A stretch of DNA of 30,059 bases from IMG/VR virus record IMGVR_UViG_3300036398_000090, positions 1 to 30,059 of that record, one strand, 5' to 3'. The DNA is from a virus. Under the pieces are notes generated by a model. The model saw only the letters and a program-made list of their open reading frames with translations. It ran no database searches and was not told the DNA's origin. A program made the translations under genes and the position numbers. This document shows positions 19,057 to 22,753 of this stretch, in pieces. Numbering within the stretch: position 1 is the stretch's first letter; each line of letters starts with the position of its first letter.

Positions 19057-21018
19057 GTGGCAACTAGAGATATAACCGAAGGTAGAGGCTCTGCAACTAC
19101 TGATGTAGGTCGTGCTATTGCCGTTGACTTAGGTATTGTTTCATCTACTTCTACTTGGCAAAACACTACCGAATCATATGATGTTGCAGTGGGTGGCTTG
19201 CCGTTCTTTTATGCTATTAATGATGAACGCCCATATATCCGTCAGACTGCACCTTTTAATAAAGAACAACAAGATACAAGTGCTGAACCAGGTGAGCAAT
19301 CGCTTACTGGTTGGTGGTTAAGAAGTCAGTCTTCTTTTCATAATGGTACTGGTATTAGGTTTTATGACCCATCTGCTGGTGAAACAGTTGCTCATCGTTT
19401 TACAGACTCAGACAATGTAGATGTATGGACTAAAGGGCAAGTAACTTTACTTAAAGAAACAGCCAATATGTCTGGTGTTACTACTGGTGTGTACAAAATA
19501 CTATCTATTGTTGATGGCTCAACAAATAAAATACTTGGTTGGATTCCAGCAAGTACAACTATAAAAAATTATACTGCCAGTGGTACTGCCGTTGAATATA
19601 CACACGTAACTGGTATAACTACACCGCTAGATACTGCCATTCTTGCTATTGCAACAGATGGTACTCACTTGTTTATTGCCGACAATGACCACATTTATAC
19701 AGGTCCAATTGCTACACCTACTGCTGGTTACTCTCGTTATTACAATACTGATAGTGAAAAAGTAGTATTGGCTTGGGTTAAACAACGTCTTGTTGGCTGT
19801 ATTGGTGCTAGTGTTTATGAATTAACTGCTAGTAAAAGTTCAAGTCATACATTACCTACACCTGTATATACACACCCTAATAGTAGTTGGACATGGACAT
19901 CTATATCTGAAGGTGGCTCTGCTATCTATGCTGCAGGTTATGCTGGCGGAAACTCCGCCATCTACAAGTTTGTTCTAACTACTGCTGGTTCTATGCCTAC
20001 CCTGACATCAGGGATTGTAGCAGCACAACTACCTATTGGTGAGATTGTCTACAAGATTGAGTCGTACCTTAGTTACCTAATGATAGGTACTAATAAGGGT
20101 ATGCGTGTGGCTGCTATTTCAGATACAACTGGCGACTTATCTTATGGTCCATTAATATTTGAAGACGCCAACGGTGTTTATGATTTTGCTTTTCGCGATA
20201 GATTTGTTTGGGCTACAGGTACAATTAATGGTTGTCCTGGTTTGTATCGTGTTGATTTAGGTTCAGAAATTGAATCTTTACGTTTTGCTCATGCAAAAGA
20301 TACTTACCTTAAAGATGCTACTGGTTATGCTACCACTGTAGATTTTGTAGGTAATACAGACCAAATAGCATTTACTACATCTGGTAGCAACGGTATAGCA
20401 ATTCAATCAACTACTGTTTTAGCAACAACTGGTTCTATAACTACAGGTAAAATTAGATTTTCTACTTTAGAGCCTAAAAATTATAAACGTCTTGTTGCAC
20501 GCGGTACATTTACATCTGGTGAGTTTACATTATCATCTCTTGCTACCGAAGTAACTGGTAGTGAAACACAATATGACCACATTTCTTATAACTCAGGTGT
20601 TGGTGCAGTAGAAGTAACTACAACTCAACCTGAAGTAGCACAAGAGTTTCTTGCATATAAGTTTACATTTAATCGTGATACTACAACTACATCTGCTGGT
20701 CCAATCTTTAAGGGCTATCAGGCTAAAGCAACTATTGCTACACCACGTCAACGTATAATCCAGTTTCCTGTTTATTGTTTTGATATAGAAACAGATAGGT
20801 TTAATACTGTAGTTGGCTATGATGGTAGAGCATATGCTCGTATGCAACTGTTAGAAGAAATTGAAAAGACAGGTGACGTACTCACTTGGCAAGACCTGAC
20901 AACAGGAGAGTCACAGCAAGCAGTAATACAGCAAGTTACATTCACTCGTATGACACCACCTGATAAGCGGTTTGATGGCTTTGGTGGCGTTATCAACATA
21001 ACTATCAGAACGGTATAA
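19057..21018 (+). CDS. Large tail/virion structural protein, 653 aa (tail hub or nozzle-like)
   Basis: GTG start at 19057 with SD AAGGAG (19046-19051); the nearby ATG at 19052 is out of frame and closes at once. The protein is beta-rich throughout. Repeated strands with small loops (AILAIATDGTHLFIADNDHI, GGSAIYAAGYAGGNSAIYKF, SYLSYLMIGTNKGMRVAAIS, NGVYDFAFRDRFVWATGTIN) look like blades of a beta-propeller. The C-terminus TGDVLTWQDLTTGESQQAVI, then FGGVINITIRTV, resembles a galectin/OB-like end seen in tail proteins. I infer a tail-hub, nozzle or adsorption-apparatus protein. It has no signal peptide. It ends 4 nt before the lysis region, closing the virion block. Confidence 0.62.
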   Translation: MATRDITEGRGSATTDVGRAIAVDLGIVSSTSTWQNTTESYDVAVGGLPFFYAINDERPYIRQTAPFNKEQQDTSAEPGEQSLTGWWLRSQSSFHNGTGIRFYDPSAGETVAHRFTDSDNVDVWTKGQVTLLKETANMSGVTTGVYKILSIVDGSTNKILGWIPASTTIKNYTASGTAVEYTHVTGITTPLDTAILAIATDGTHLFIADNDHIYTGPIATPTAGYSRYYNTDSEKVVLAWVKQRLVGCIGASVYELTASKSSSHTLPTPVYTHPNSSWTWTSISEGGSAIYAAGYAGGNSAIYKFVLTTAGSMPTLTSGIVAAQLPIGEIVYKIESYLSYLMIGTNKGMRVAAISDTTGDLSYGPLIFEDANGVYDFAFRDRFVWATGTINGCPGLYRVDLGSEIESLRFAHAKDTYLKDATGYATTVDFVGNTDQIAFTTSGSNGIAIQSTTVLATTGSITTGKIRFSTLEPKNYKRLVARGTFTSGEFTLSSLATEVTGSETQYDHISYNSGVGAVEVTTTQPEVAQEFLAYKFTFNRDTTTTSAGPIFKGYQAKATIATPRQRIIQFPVYCFDIETDRFNTVVGYDGRAYARMQLLEEIEKTGDVLTWQDLTTGESQQAVIQQVTFTRMTPPDKRFDGFGGVINITIRTV

Positions 21019-21022
21019 CACC

Positions 21023-21223
21023 ATGACACCACAGGATTGGGTTGCATTTGCCCTATCAATCACATCTTTAATAGGTGCGTTTGCTCTTATGATTCGTTGG
21101 ATGGTTAAACATTACTTAGCAGAACTTAAACCAAATGGAGGTAGCAGTGTCTCTGATAGACTCAATCGCGTTGAAAGTCGGGTTGATGACATTTATAATA
21201 TTCTCTCTAGGCGCACTGACTAG
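21023..21223 (+). CDS. Small membrane protein with C-terminal coiled coil (holin- or i-spanin-like)
   Basis: 66 aa. One N-terminal TM helix (about residues 8-27, VAFALSITSLIGAFALMIRW) is followed by a basic linker and an amphipathic coiled coil (DRLNRVESRVDDIYNILSRR). This layout is seen in small phage lysis proteins (DUF2746/holin-like) and in i-spanins. Its 3' end overlaps the lipoprotein gene by 77 nt, and the lipoprotein is in the +1 frame, the same frame relation as the nested Rz/Rz1 pair. In an actinobacterial host a true two-membrane spanin would be unexpected, so a holin-type function remains an alternative. ATG 21023 lies 4 nt after the upstream stop. Confidence 0.7.
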   Translation: MTPQDWVAFALSITSLIGAFALMIRWMVKHYLAELKPNGGSSVSDRLNRVESRVDDIYNILSRRTD

Positions 21224-21359
21224 TTGTGGCTATCAAGGATGGGTCAGGTATCCCTGCCAAGAGTATGAAAACTGGGAAAAGCCAGAGTGTAAACCGCCGC
21301 AGTGTTTACCAACAGGTACATGTACCAAAGACATTCTTCCAGGAATTGTTGATGAGTAA
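21147..21359 (+). CDS. Small phage lipoprotein with lipobox (o-spanin-like)
   Basis: I choose GTG 21147 because SD GGAGG (21137-21141) precedes it by 5 nt; an ATG at 21135 would add 4 residues but destroys that spacing. The 70-aa product has a type II signal peptide: hydrophobic helix VGLMTFIIFSLGALTS, then Cys27 in an LTSC lipobox. The mature part contains GYQGWVRYPCQEYENWEKPE, then CKPPQC and TGTC, so it is Cys- and Pro-rich. I recall this GY.G.VRYPCQ...NWE..ECKPP.C...GTC pattern as a small lipoprotein in many aquatic phages, function unknown. It overlaps the preceding membrane protein in the +1 frame. Superinfection exclusion or lysis are both possible. Confidence 0.75.
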   Translation: MSLIDSIALKVGLMTFIIFSLGALTSCGYQGWVRYPCQEYENWEKPECKPPQCLPTGTCTKDILPGIVDE

Positions 21360-21639
21360 GCGCCGTAAGTTTAGCCCTGAAGAATTACACGCAAGACTTA
21401 TTGTAACCATTGGAATTATACTAGCCATTGTATTTGCTGGTTCTGTCTTTGCATTGCTATACGCACTGCTATTTATTACCCAACCACTAGGAGAACAAGC
21501 GCCAAATGATGCTGCATTTATTGACCTTGTTAGTACCCTTTGTGTGTTTCTTACTGGTTCTCTTGCTGGCGTACTTGCAGGAAATGGATTAAAGTCTAAG
21601 CCTAAAGAACCACAACCAGAACCAGAGGTAAGTAAATGA
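21352..21639 (+). CDS. Two-TM small membrane protein (possible holin/antiholin)
   Basis: I choose ATG 21352, overlapping the lipoprotein stop by 8 nt. The longer open frame from 21226 would add residues that merely mirror the lipoprotein gene in another frame. The 95-aa product has a basic N-terminus (SKRRKFSPEELHARL) and two TM helices (IVTIGIILAIVFAGSVFALL and LVSTLCVFLTGSLAGVLAGN) joined by a short polar loop. The tail is Pro/Glu/Lys-rich (KSKPKEPQPEPEVSK). Lysis-cassette position and topology are holin-like. It ends in an ATGA overlap with the next small gene. Confidence 0.7.
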   Translation: MSKRRKFSPEELHARLIVTIGIILAIVFAGSVFALLYALLFITQPLGEQAPNDAAFIDLVSTLCVFLTGSLAGVLAGNGLKSKPKEPQPEPEVSK

Positions 21640-21728
21640 GACTTGGTTTTATAATTCCTGAACCTGATTGGGATATTACATTTCCAGATATAAATCCAGA
21701 AGAATGGATAGATGAGGACGAAGAATGA
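21636..21728 (+). CDS. 30-aa acidic peptide gene in lysis cassette
   Basis: Enclosed by two ATGA (4-nt) overlaps, with the preceding membrane protein and with the endolysin. Product starts RLGFIIPEPDWDITF and ends in an acidic run (EEWIDEDEE). Trp and Pro are over-represented and there is no TM segment. The exact overlaps on both sides support translation, and it may serve mainly to couple endolysin translation. No function can be assigned. Confidence 0.55.
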   Translation: MRLGFIIPEPDWDITFPDINPEEWIDEDEE

Positions 21729-22237
21729 GTCAACGTAATAAGTTTATAGCCACAGCCCGTGCTGAACTTGGCGTAATTGAAGGACCTAAAGAGAATCAAA
21801 CTAAGTATGGTGCATTTACTAAAGCAAACTTTTTGCCTTGGTGTGGGTCATTTGTTAACTGGTGTGCAAACGAAGTAGGACTTAAGATTCCTAATTGCGT
21901 ATCAACAGTTGTAGGTGCTAAGGCATTTGAAAAGAAAGGTCAATGGGAGTTAGCAAGTAATACTGCTATGCCATTGCCAGGCGATATATGTTTCATGGAC
22001 TTTCCAAATGATGGATTAGACCGAATTTCTCACGTTGGAATCGTAGTTAAAGACAATGGTGATGGAACAGTTACTTGCATTGAAGGTAACACAGCACCAG
22101 ATAAGAAGGGTGACCAACGCAATGGCGGTCAGGTCTGCTTGAAGGTTCGTGCTTTCAAGAAGAAGAACGGTAGTAAATTGCGCCGTTCACAAGCGGTAAC
22201 AGTGGTTGGCTTTGGTAAGCCAGTCTTTAAGTCATAA
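21725..22237 (+). CDS. CHAP-domain endolysin
   Basis: 170 aa. A CHAP (NlpC/P60-superfamily) amidase/endopeptidase core is visible: FLPWCGSFVNWCANEV with likely nucleophile Cys40, SHVGIVVKDNGDG with His103, and CIEGNT with acidic residue Glu120. The order Cys-His-Glu matches the family. It should cut peptide bonds in peptidoglycan at lysis. There is no signal peptide and no separate cell-wall-binding domain after the catalytic region (C-terminus KLRRSQAVTVVGFGKPVFKS), so the enzyme is minimal and needs a holin for release. The following gene is a holin-like membrane protein, and the preceding genes encode membrane and lipoproteins, which forms a complete lysis cassette. ATGA overlap at the start. 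Confidence 0.88.
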   Translation: MSQRNKFIATARAELGVIEGPKENQTKYGAFTKANFLPWCGSFVNWCANEVGLKIPNCVSTVVGAKAFEKKGQWELASNTAMPLPGDICFMDFPNDGLDRISHVGIVVKDNGDGTVTCIEGNTAPDKKGDQRNGGQVCLKVRAFKKKNGSKLRRSQAVTVVGFGKPVFKS

Positions 22238-22245
22238 GGAGAAAC

Positions 22246-22437
22246 ATGAATACAGATAAACTAGTTGCTATCGCAACTACCTATGCACGTGCAGCAGTAC
22301 CATCAGTGGTTGCACTATATGCAGCAGGAGTAACAGACCCTAAGACACTGGCATATGCTTTCTTGTCAGCGTTTATCGCTCCACTATGGAAGGCACTAGA
22401 CCCTAAGGCTAAGGAATTTGGTCGCGGTTCTAAGTAA
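22246..22437 (+). CDS. Holin-like small membrane protein
   Basis: 63 aa with a clear SD (AAGGAG, 22236-22241) before ATG 22246. Two hydrophobic segments (YARAAVPSVVALYAAG and LAYAFLSAFIAPLWKAL) are separated by a VTDPKT turn. The C-terminus is charged (DPKAKEFGRGSK). Size, position right after the endolysin and the positive tail fit a small holin that permeabilises the membrane. I cannot assign a named holin superfamily. It is the last gene of the rightward block, immediately before the terminator. Confidence 0.72.
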   Translation: MNTDKLVAIATTYARAAVPSVVALYAAGVTDPKTLAYAFLSAFIAPLWKALDPKAKEFGRGSK

Positions 22438-22448
22438 ATATAAGTAAA

Positions 22449-22494
22449 AGCCCCCGCTCAGGTAAATTAACCTACCTGGCGGGGGTCTTTTTTT
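22449..22494. terminator. Strong bidirectional-type Rho-independent terminator between converging gene blocks
   Basis: CCCCCGC (22451-22457) pairs with GCGGGGG (22479-22485), and CAGGTA (22459-22464) with TACCTG (22473-22478), with one bulged T (22458) and an 8-nt loop. Seven T residues (22488-22494) follow on the + strand, and four T residues follow on the - strand. It can stop both the rightward structural transcript and the leftward transcript, whose last gene (WhiB) ends at 22493. Confidence 0.92.
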
Positions 22495-22753
22495 ATTGGT
22501 ACGTTAAATATAATGGTATTGGTTTTATATTAAATGCATCTCGTAACTTGTGGCGCTGACCTTCAGTAGTATTACCCCAGTAACCTGACACACCATACTT
22601 AAGTGCATAGTCAAGACATTCTTTTTGAACAACACAATTGCCACAAATAATTTTAAGTGCTTTCATTTCTGGATAAGTACCTTGTCCATCTGGTACAAAA
22701 AACAATTCACTATCTGTTGACTCGCAATTAGGTGTATCACTGGGTCTAAACAT
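22493..22753 (-). CDS. WhiB-like transcription factor
   Basis: 86 aa with the WhiB signature: C10, then C37-x2-C40 and C46 (CGNCVVQKEC) to bind an [4Fe-4S] cluster, followed by the GVSGYWGNTTEGQRHKLR region (G[VI]WGG turn and basic tail). WhiB-like proteins occur in Actinobacteria and their phages, so this gene is the best host marker in the window. Phage copies (for example in mycobacteriophages) have been reported to affect host gene expression and septation; here regulation of host or phage genes is inferred. ATG directly follows the FmdB-like stop. The terminator U-run overlaps its stop. Confidence 0.88.
   Translation of the reverse strand: MFRPSDTPNCESTDSELFFVPDGQGTYPEMKALKIICGNCVVQKECLDYALKYGVSGYWGNTTEGQRHKLRDAFNIKPIPLYLTYQ

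Follow-up and report, generated by a model that had tools for sequence, protein, structure and literature searches.

A phage lipoprotein gene that overlaps a coiled-coil membrane protein gene probably belongs to an optional two-gene lysis-region module rather than to a spanin pair

Introduction

Superinfection exclusion is exerted by the T4 proteins Sp, which is secreted, and Imm, which has two transmembrane (TM) segments, and by lipoproteins such as Llp of phage T5. A two-component spanin combines an i-spanin with an o-spanin, an outer-membrane lipoprotein, in a complex that spans the periplasm, and its two genes may be embedded, overlapped or separated. The i-spanin, as exemplified by Rz, is a class II inner-membrane protein with N-in/C-out topology and periplasmic coiled coils (PMC6139136). 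Actinophage lysis cassettes are known to include proteins with one TM segment and N-out/C-in topology (PMC13056207, PMC9671378), and deletion of one of them, LysF1b, disturbs lysis in mycobacteriophages (PMC13056207).

Here we describe the lysis region of an uncultured virus, IMG/VR record IMGVR_UViG_3300036398_000090, in which a lipoprotein gene overlaps the gene of a one-TM coiled-coil protein. The whole stretch of DNA analyzed (30,059 nt, hereinafter the window) covers a siphophage-like genome from its tail genes to its lysis genes.

Results

Gene order in the lysis region

The region comprises the following features:

19057..21018, + strand: structural (tail) protein, directly upstream of TM66 (tblastn, 31 records)
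21023..21223, + strand: TM66, MTPQDWVAFALSITSLIGAFALMIRWMVKHYLAELKPNGGSSVSDRLNRVESRVDDIYNILSRRTD, 66 aa (open reading frame; PHROG 9869, E 4e-13, function unknown)
21137..21142, + strand: GGAGGT Shine-Dalgarno sequence of the lipoprotein gene, within the TM66 frame (Asn-Gly-Gly codons)
21147..21359, + strand: small lipoprotein, 70 aa from GTG 21147, lipobox LTSC (open reading frame, 58-sequence alignment)
21352..21639, + strand: two-TM protein (2TM), 95 aa (phrog_25359, E 8e-36, function unknown)
21725..22237, + strand: CHAP endolysin (PF05257, E 1e-11; PHROG endolysin, E 3e-21)
22246..22437, + strand: small holin-like protein (weak PHROG 37724 match; synteny and homology, also in the cultured phages E7 and F5)
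22493..22753, - strand: WhiB-like regulator, an actinophage marker (PF02467, E 8e-13)

From GTG 21147, which is the favoured start because GGAGGT lies 4 nt upstream, the lipoprotein gene overlaps TM66 by 77 nt in the +1 frame; the other possible starts, ATG 21135 and TTG 21171, give overlaps of 89 and 53 nt. The coordinates, overlap and frame reported for this pair in the first-pass annotation are correct, and the Cys/Pro-rich lipoprotein with lipobox LTSC that it described is confirmed (five Cys, six Pro). At its other end, the lipoprotein stop is overlapped by 8 nt by the 2TM start codon (ATG 21352). TM66 lies upstream of the lipoprotein gene and overlaps it in 63 of 81 close loci, the window counted, and many relatives have a 44-nt overlap with a TTG start and GGAG upstream. 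The lipoprotein is also conserved where TM66 is absent. This conservation, together with the recurrence in 63 loci, argues that the overlap is not due to chance. Rfam and tRNA scans of the whole window found nothing. Between 2TM and the endolysin there is an acidic open reading frame of 30 codons, MRLGFIIPEPDWDITFPDINPEEWIDEDEE, at positions 21637-21729. The lipoprotein and 2TM genes are referred to below as the module.

Host and cultured relatives

The major capsid protein is, over its full length, 74.6% identical to that of OX376640.1 and 74.3% identical to that of OX376641.1, the cultured Planktophila phages E7 and F5 (LanE43-AprE7 and LanE43-AprF5), which lyse the actinobacterium Ca. Planktophila strain LanE-43 (PMC10202952). 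The next capsid matches are Streptomyces phages, with 44-55% identity over 71-94%. Homologues of the tail protein encoded at 19057-21018 were found in the annotated phage collection only in E7/F5 and in 29 Streptomyces (Beephvirinae) records. WhiB is present in 38 of the 50 records searched, E7 among them, and hence in 37 of the 49 module-bearing records. Judging from the capsid, the tail protein and WhiB, an actinobacterial host is well supported, and it is probably a member of the Nanopelagicales. The actinobacterial host that had been proposed from WhiB thus gains the Planktophila and Streptomyces matches of the capsid and tail proteins, and the competing suggestion that this host assignment was wrong is rejected.

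Two scans of bacterial and archaeal genomes returned zero lipoprotein matches and one 2TM match; with the scans near-empty, no prophage points to the host. Nanopelagicales are devoid of CRISPR-Cas (PMC10202952). The E7 and F5 records are filed under 'Caudovirales sp. ct2KA10' without host or annotation, and for lack of a filed host they are missed in host tallies.

In E7 and F5, TM66 is followed directly by an M15-type endolysin and then by a holin-like gene. Neither lipoprotein nor 2TM was found in the whole E7 genome, or in the E7/F5 records by collection-wide tblastn; these cultured actinophages carry TM66 without the lipoprotein.

TM66

TM66 consists of a single N-terminal TM helix and a short heptad-like helix (coiled coil). 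In 40 of 40 distinct homologues the N-flank (the eight N-terminal residues) has a charge of 0 or -1 and the C-flank a charge of +2, and the stretch after the TM helix reads R-W-x-V-K-H in nearly all of them. From these flank charges an N-out/C-in topology is predicted, which would place the coiled coil in the cytoplasm, where TM66 would be unable to reach any partner on the outside. About 39 aa of the protein are soluble, compared with 153 residues for the whole of lambda Rz. A Pfam scan with TM66 yielded noise only, and tblastn with a homologue of TM66, with E values up to 10 allowed, gave nothing convincing besides E7/F5.

An IMG/VR search with the TM66 alignment identified at least 592 stretches, of which the best 80 were examined and 75 were assessable. 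Among these 75 loci, lipoprotein and 2TM are both present in 10 and both absent in 65; none contains only one of the two. TM66 is best read as an ordinary endolysin-adjacent membrane protein of actinophages, part of a Nanopelagicales-type lysis cassette. In two loci (L180 and L183), the 3' end of TM66 is overlapped by a different, much longer open reading frame (about 420 codons), which begins some 60 nt ahead of the TM66 stop and has a signal-peptide-like start ending ...LAYA, as if the codons of the TM66 coiled coil, read in the +1 frame, were prone to yield signal peptides.

The lipoprotein and its partner

Lipoprotein loci were collected by IMG/VR searches with the window lipoprotein (best 80 of 202 confirmed stretches) and with DSL-LC01 (best 80 kept); the two queries gave about 280 matches, some possibly common to both. 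Together with reference records, these yielded 165 loci by lipoprotein profile search. Since many contigs are near-identical and the best 80 matches per search were kept, the locus counts do not represent independent events.

The mature lipoprotein has 44 residues, including five Cys (the lipobox Cys counted) and six Pro, and the alignment of 58 sequences contains an invariant R-Y-x-C-Q...N-W...C...C...C pattern. The lipobox Cys is present in all distinct homologues but two; these divergent proteins (L083 and L156) have an N-terminal hydrophobic anchor instead. No match to the lipoprotein was found in Pfam, PHROGs or PADLOC, NCBIfam gave weak matches far below the curated cut-offs, and profile comparison with lambda Rz1 gave no match. 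One distant homologue matched the PHROG annotation 'Rz-like spanin' (E 0.05), but this match was discarded, as it covers the signal peptide only. AlphaFold modelled the lipoprotein head poorly (pLDDT 64).

The 2TM gene is found in 163 of the 165 lipoprotein loci, directly downstream of the lipoprotein in 158; the remaining two loci (L053 and L121) stop at contig ends. TM66, by comparison, lies upstream in 64 loci and is absent within the fetched flanks in 99, a contig edge intervening in two. By gene neighbourhood, the constant partner of the lipoprotein is 2TM, not TM66. The lipoprotein is thus often, though not always, without the membrane partner originally assigned to it. The 2TM signature is F...Q-P...N-D...F-x-T-G-x-L (30 sequences), with the exoplasmic loop motif F-[VI]-T-Q-P...N-D, and AlphaFold models the protein as a helical hairpin only (pLDDT 72). 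Neither the lipoprotein model nor the 2TM model offers a useful fold, and a Foldseek search against viral models (E<=0.001) retrieved only uncharacterised proteins of uncultured phages.

Close relatives of the window share the order TM66-endolysin-holin, with or without lipoprotein and 2TM between TM66 and the endolysin, which is M15-type as in E7/F5 (47 loci) or CHAP (8 loci, the window among them). This pattern indicates that the two genes of the module are gained and lost together and that lysis is possible without it. Holin or endolysin genes also neighbour the module in phages of several unrelated types. Lipoprotein and 2TM are best read as an undescribed, optional two-gene module of the phage lysis region.

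The 2TM protein of the window is ~90-97% identical to those of loci whose tail gene is 37-55% identical, and at fourfold-degenerate sites the identity is 62-79% in 2TM vs mostly 33-50% in the adjacent lipoprotein gene. Such a pattern could reflect recent recombination around 2TM, perhaps as an anchor for endolysin swapping, or an extra constraint on the DNA. On a contig binned with a Proteobacteria MAG (L169, 7280-7692), the gene upstream of a 2TM homologue (55%) encodes a different small lipoprotein, MKQTHYLASLALLIVATACETTRDNTQQ..., which the lipoprotein profile missed; 2TM may therefore pair with unrelated lipoproteins.

A GH19 lineage with apparent Gram-negative hosts

A group of 17 loci (L151-L168 except L156) encodes a GH19 endolysin, and its hosts are assigned by inference rather than by culture. 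The stabilisation protein is closest to that of DSL-LC04, followed by those of the cultured Pelagibacter phages HTVC027P and HTVC023P; neither lipoprotein nor 2TM is detectable in these relatives. WhiB was not found in the three GH19-group records tested. The module is accompanied in 16 of the 17 loci by a separate DUF2514/Rz1-type pair about 0.5-0.6 kb downstream, and the 17th locus (L158) ends near the expected Rz/Rz1 position. The DUF2514 protein (PF10721, E 5e-11 in L153) is overlapped in the +1 frame by a lipoprotein of the form T-A-C-[AS]...P-P; from the sequences, the two have the textbook Rz/Rz1 layout, separate from the module. In this group the lipoprotein gene of the module can have its start within the 3'-terminal part of the endolysin gene, suggesting that it overlaps any preceding gene and not TM66 in particular.

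The +2 residue of the module lipoprotein is Asp in 17 of 17 GH19-group loci, while the Rz1-like proteins of these loci have Ala or Ser. Asp at +2 is the classical inner-membrane retention signal (the Lol rule), established for enterobacteria. Together with the anchors that lack the lipobox Cys (L083 and L156), it points to the outer face of the cytoplasmic membrane as the working site of the lipoprotein. An exception is the GH19-type record MW202462 (L088), in which Ser is at +2 and the rule would send the lipoprotein to the outer membrane. Hosts apparently with and without an outer membrane thus seem to be served by phages with the module, and the lipoprotein is not confined to phages of Gram-negative bacteria, the outcome that would have spoken against the initial reading.

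Discussion

The first-pass annotation had described an Rz/Rz1-like pair with the layout of i-spanin/o-spanin genes and had left three readings open: another function for the lipoprotein, envelope disruption in actinobacterial hosts, or a wrong host. Its account of the gene layout stands: a one-TM coiled-coil protein and a small Pro-containing lipoprotein are encoded in an overlapped +1 arrangement in the lysis region, which speaks for a genuine two-component spanin, with TM66 as i-spanin and the lipoprotein as o-spanin, in an actinobacterial host or one with an unrecognised outer layer. The pairing, in contrast, fails on topology, on partnership and on the co-existence of the module with Rz/Rz1-type pairs. 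TM66 was rejected as an i-spanin since its predicted orientation is the opposite of that of Rz in 40/40 homologues, and its soluble part is far shorter (about 39 aa against the 153 aa of lambda Rz). Nor do the two form a co-occurring pair, 65 of 75 assessable TM66 loci being without the lipoprotein and 99 of 165 lipoprotein loci without TM66, so neither needs the other. With regard to o-spanin traits, the lipobox Cys is kept in all but two homologues, the host is without a classical outer membrane and Asp occupies +2 throughout the GH19 group; the lipoprotein does not match lambda Rz1, and phages in which an outer membrane of the host is expected encode an Rz/Rz1-type pair of their own. A spanin of a Gram-negative host is rejected by the capsid identity to E7 (74.6%), by WhiB and by tail homologues restricted to actinophages. 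A genuine spanin is consequently extremely improbable. The best explanation is that TM66 and the lipoprotein are two unrelated genes that happen to overlap. The lipoprotein and 2TM are very probably not a spanin but a module at the cytoplasmic membrane, in keeping with the suggestion, made alongside the spanin reading, that the lipoprotein does something else.

We propose that the lipoprotein is exported and, as predicted, fixed by a lipid anchor to the outer surface of the cytoplasmic membrane, where its 44-residue head, probably disulfide-stapled (model pLDDT 64), would sit on the loop of 2TM. The short exoplasmic T-Q-P...N-D loop of 2TM would face the head, and we infer that the two bind. 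The complex might then tune the last step of infection, through holin triggering or endolysin access and hence lysis timing, with no membrane fusion involved. Such a role is favoured by the usual setting of the module, beside endolysin or holin genes in phages of several unrelated types. As a whole, the explanation that combines a non-spanin pair, the lipoprotein-2TM module and lysis tuning appears marginally probable to us; lysis tuning as the function, suggested by position and gene neighbourhood, is possible and tentatively held. A broader idea, that the module is an undescribed device for ending infection, by lysis timing or superinfection lysis inhibition, and works in the same way in hosts with and without an outer membrane, is rather unlikely; if true, it would account for the presence of the module, its mature signature intact, in phages of very different kinds.

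The main rival to lysis tuning is superinfection exclusion, in which lipoprotein and 2TM in the membrane would block the DNA entry or the tail-lysin action of a second phage. This rival is kept alive by the dispensability of the module, which is present or absent among close relatives, and by a build like that of T4 Sp and Imm, a small exported Cys-containing protein with a 2-TM protein; the apparently very different hosts and the strong conservation of the mature lipoprotein are also consistent with it. However, profile comparison with Imm and Sp of T4 shows no relation (hhalign probability 0.4% and 0.1%, respectively), and the module gave no PADLOC match. It lies mostly among lysis genes, whereas imm and sp are surrounded by replication genes in T4, and we regard exclusion as unlikely. 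The lipoprotein could instead disturb the wall or lipoglycan layer outside the membrane, as an envelope-weakening lysis factor LysZ-like in function. Its lysis-cassette position fits this role, and corynephage LysZ suggests that an additional lysis protein can be necessary for actinobacterial envelopes (PMC13056207). However, LysZ is a 177-aa one-TM protein and not a lipoprotein (PMC13056207), the cultured Planktophila phages lyse without the module (PMC10202952), and the module also occurs in Gram-negative-looking phages that already possess an Rz/Rz1-type pair, making envelope weakening very unlikely.

Lysis tuning and its rivals concern an unannotated gene pair in phages of abundant freshwater bacteria, and the cultured Planktophila phages, naturally without the module, provide a clean background for testing its function. 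The analysis also disposes of a mistaken spanin assignment in actinophages and shows that the overlap of a TM-protein gene with a lipoprotein gene is insufficient to call a spanin.

Comparison with known systems

T4 Sp and Imm share with the module the combination of a small exported protein and a 2-TM membrane protein, but they have no profile similarity to it, and sp and imm are neither adjacent to each other nor located in a lysis cassette. By family, 2TM is a member of phrog_25359, of unknown function, and its partner lipoprotein has no PHROG match. Stella gp48 of the Beephvirinae (Stella, Manuel and FlowerPower, Streptomyces phages) resembles TM66 in its position after the homologous tail gene, in its one TM segment followed by K/R and a helical tail, and in the holin further on; it differs in its length (104 aa) and in having no detectable sequence match to TM66, and the Beephvirinae are without the lipoprotein and 2TM. 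LysF1b (Girr/NormanBulbieJr) and the Gordonia 1-TM proteins have one N-terminal TM segment in N-out/C-in orientation, as predicted for TM66, and a charged cytoplasmic tail, and adjoin endolysin and holin-like proteins (PMC13056207, PMC9671378). The Gordonia proteins, unlike TM66, have no predicted coiled coil, and the likeness of TM66 to the LysF1b type is one of build and lysis-cassette place and does not imply homology. Lambda Rz/Rz1, in an overlapped form as in P2, shares the +1 overlap of a lipoprotein gene with a one-TM coiled-coil gene in the lysis region. It differs in that TM66 is far shorter and predicted to be N-out/C-in, that the partner of the lipoprotein is a 2-TM protein, and that the host is an actinobacterium; Gram-negative-type phages with the module have Rz/Rz1-type pairs as separate genes.
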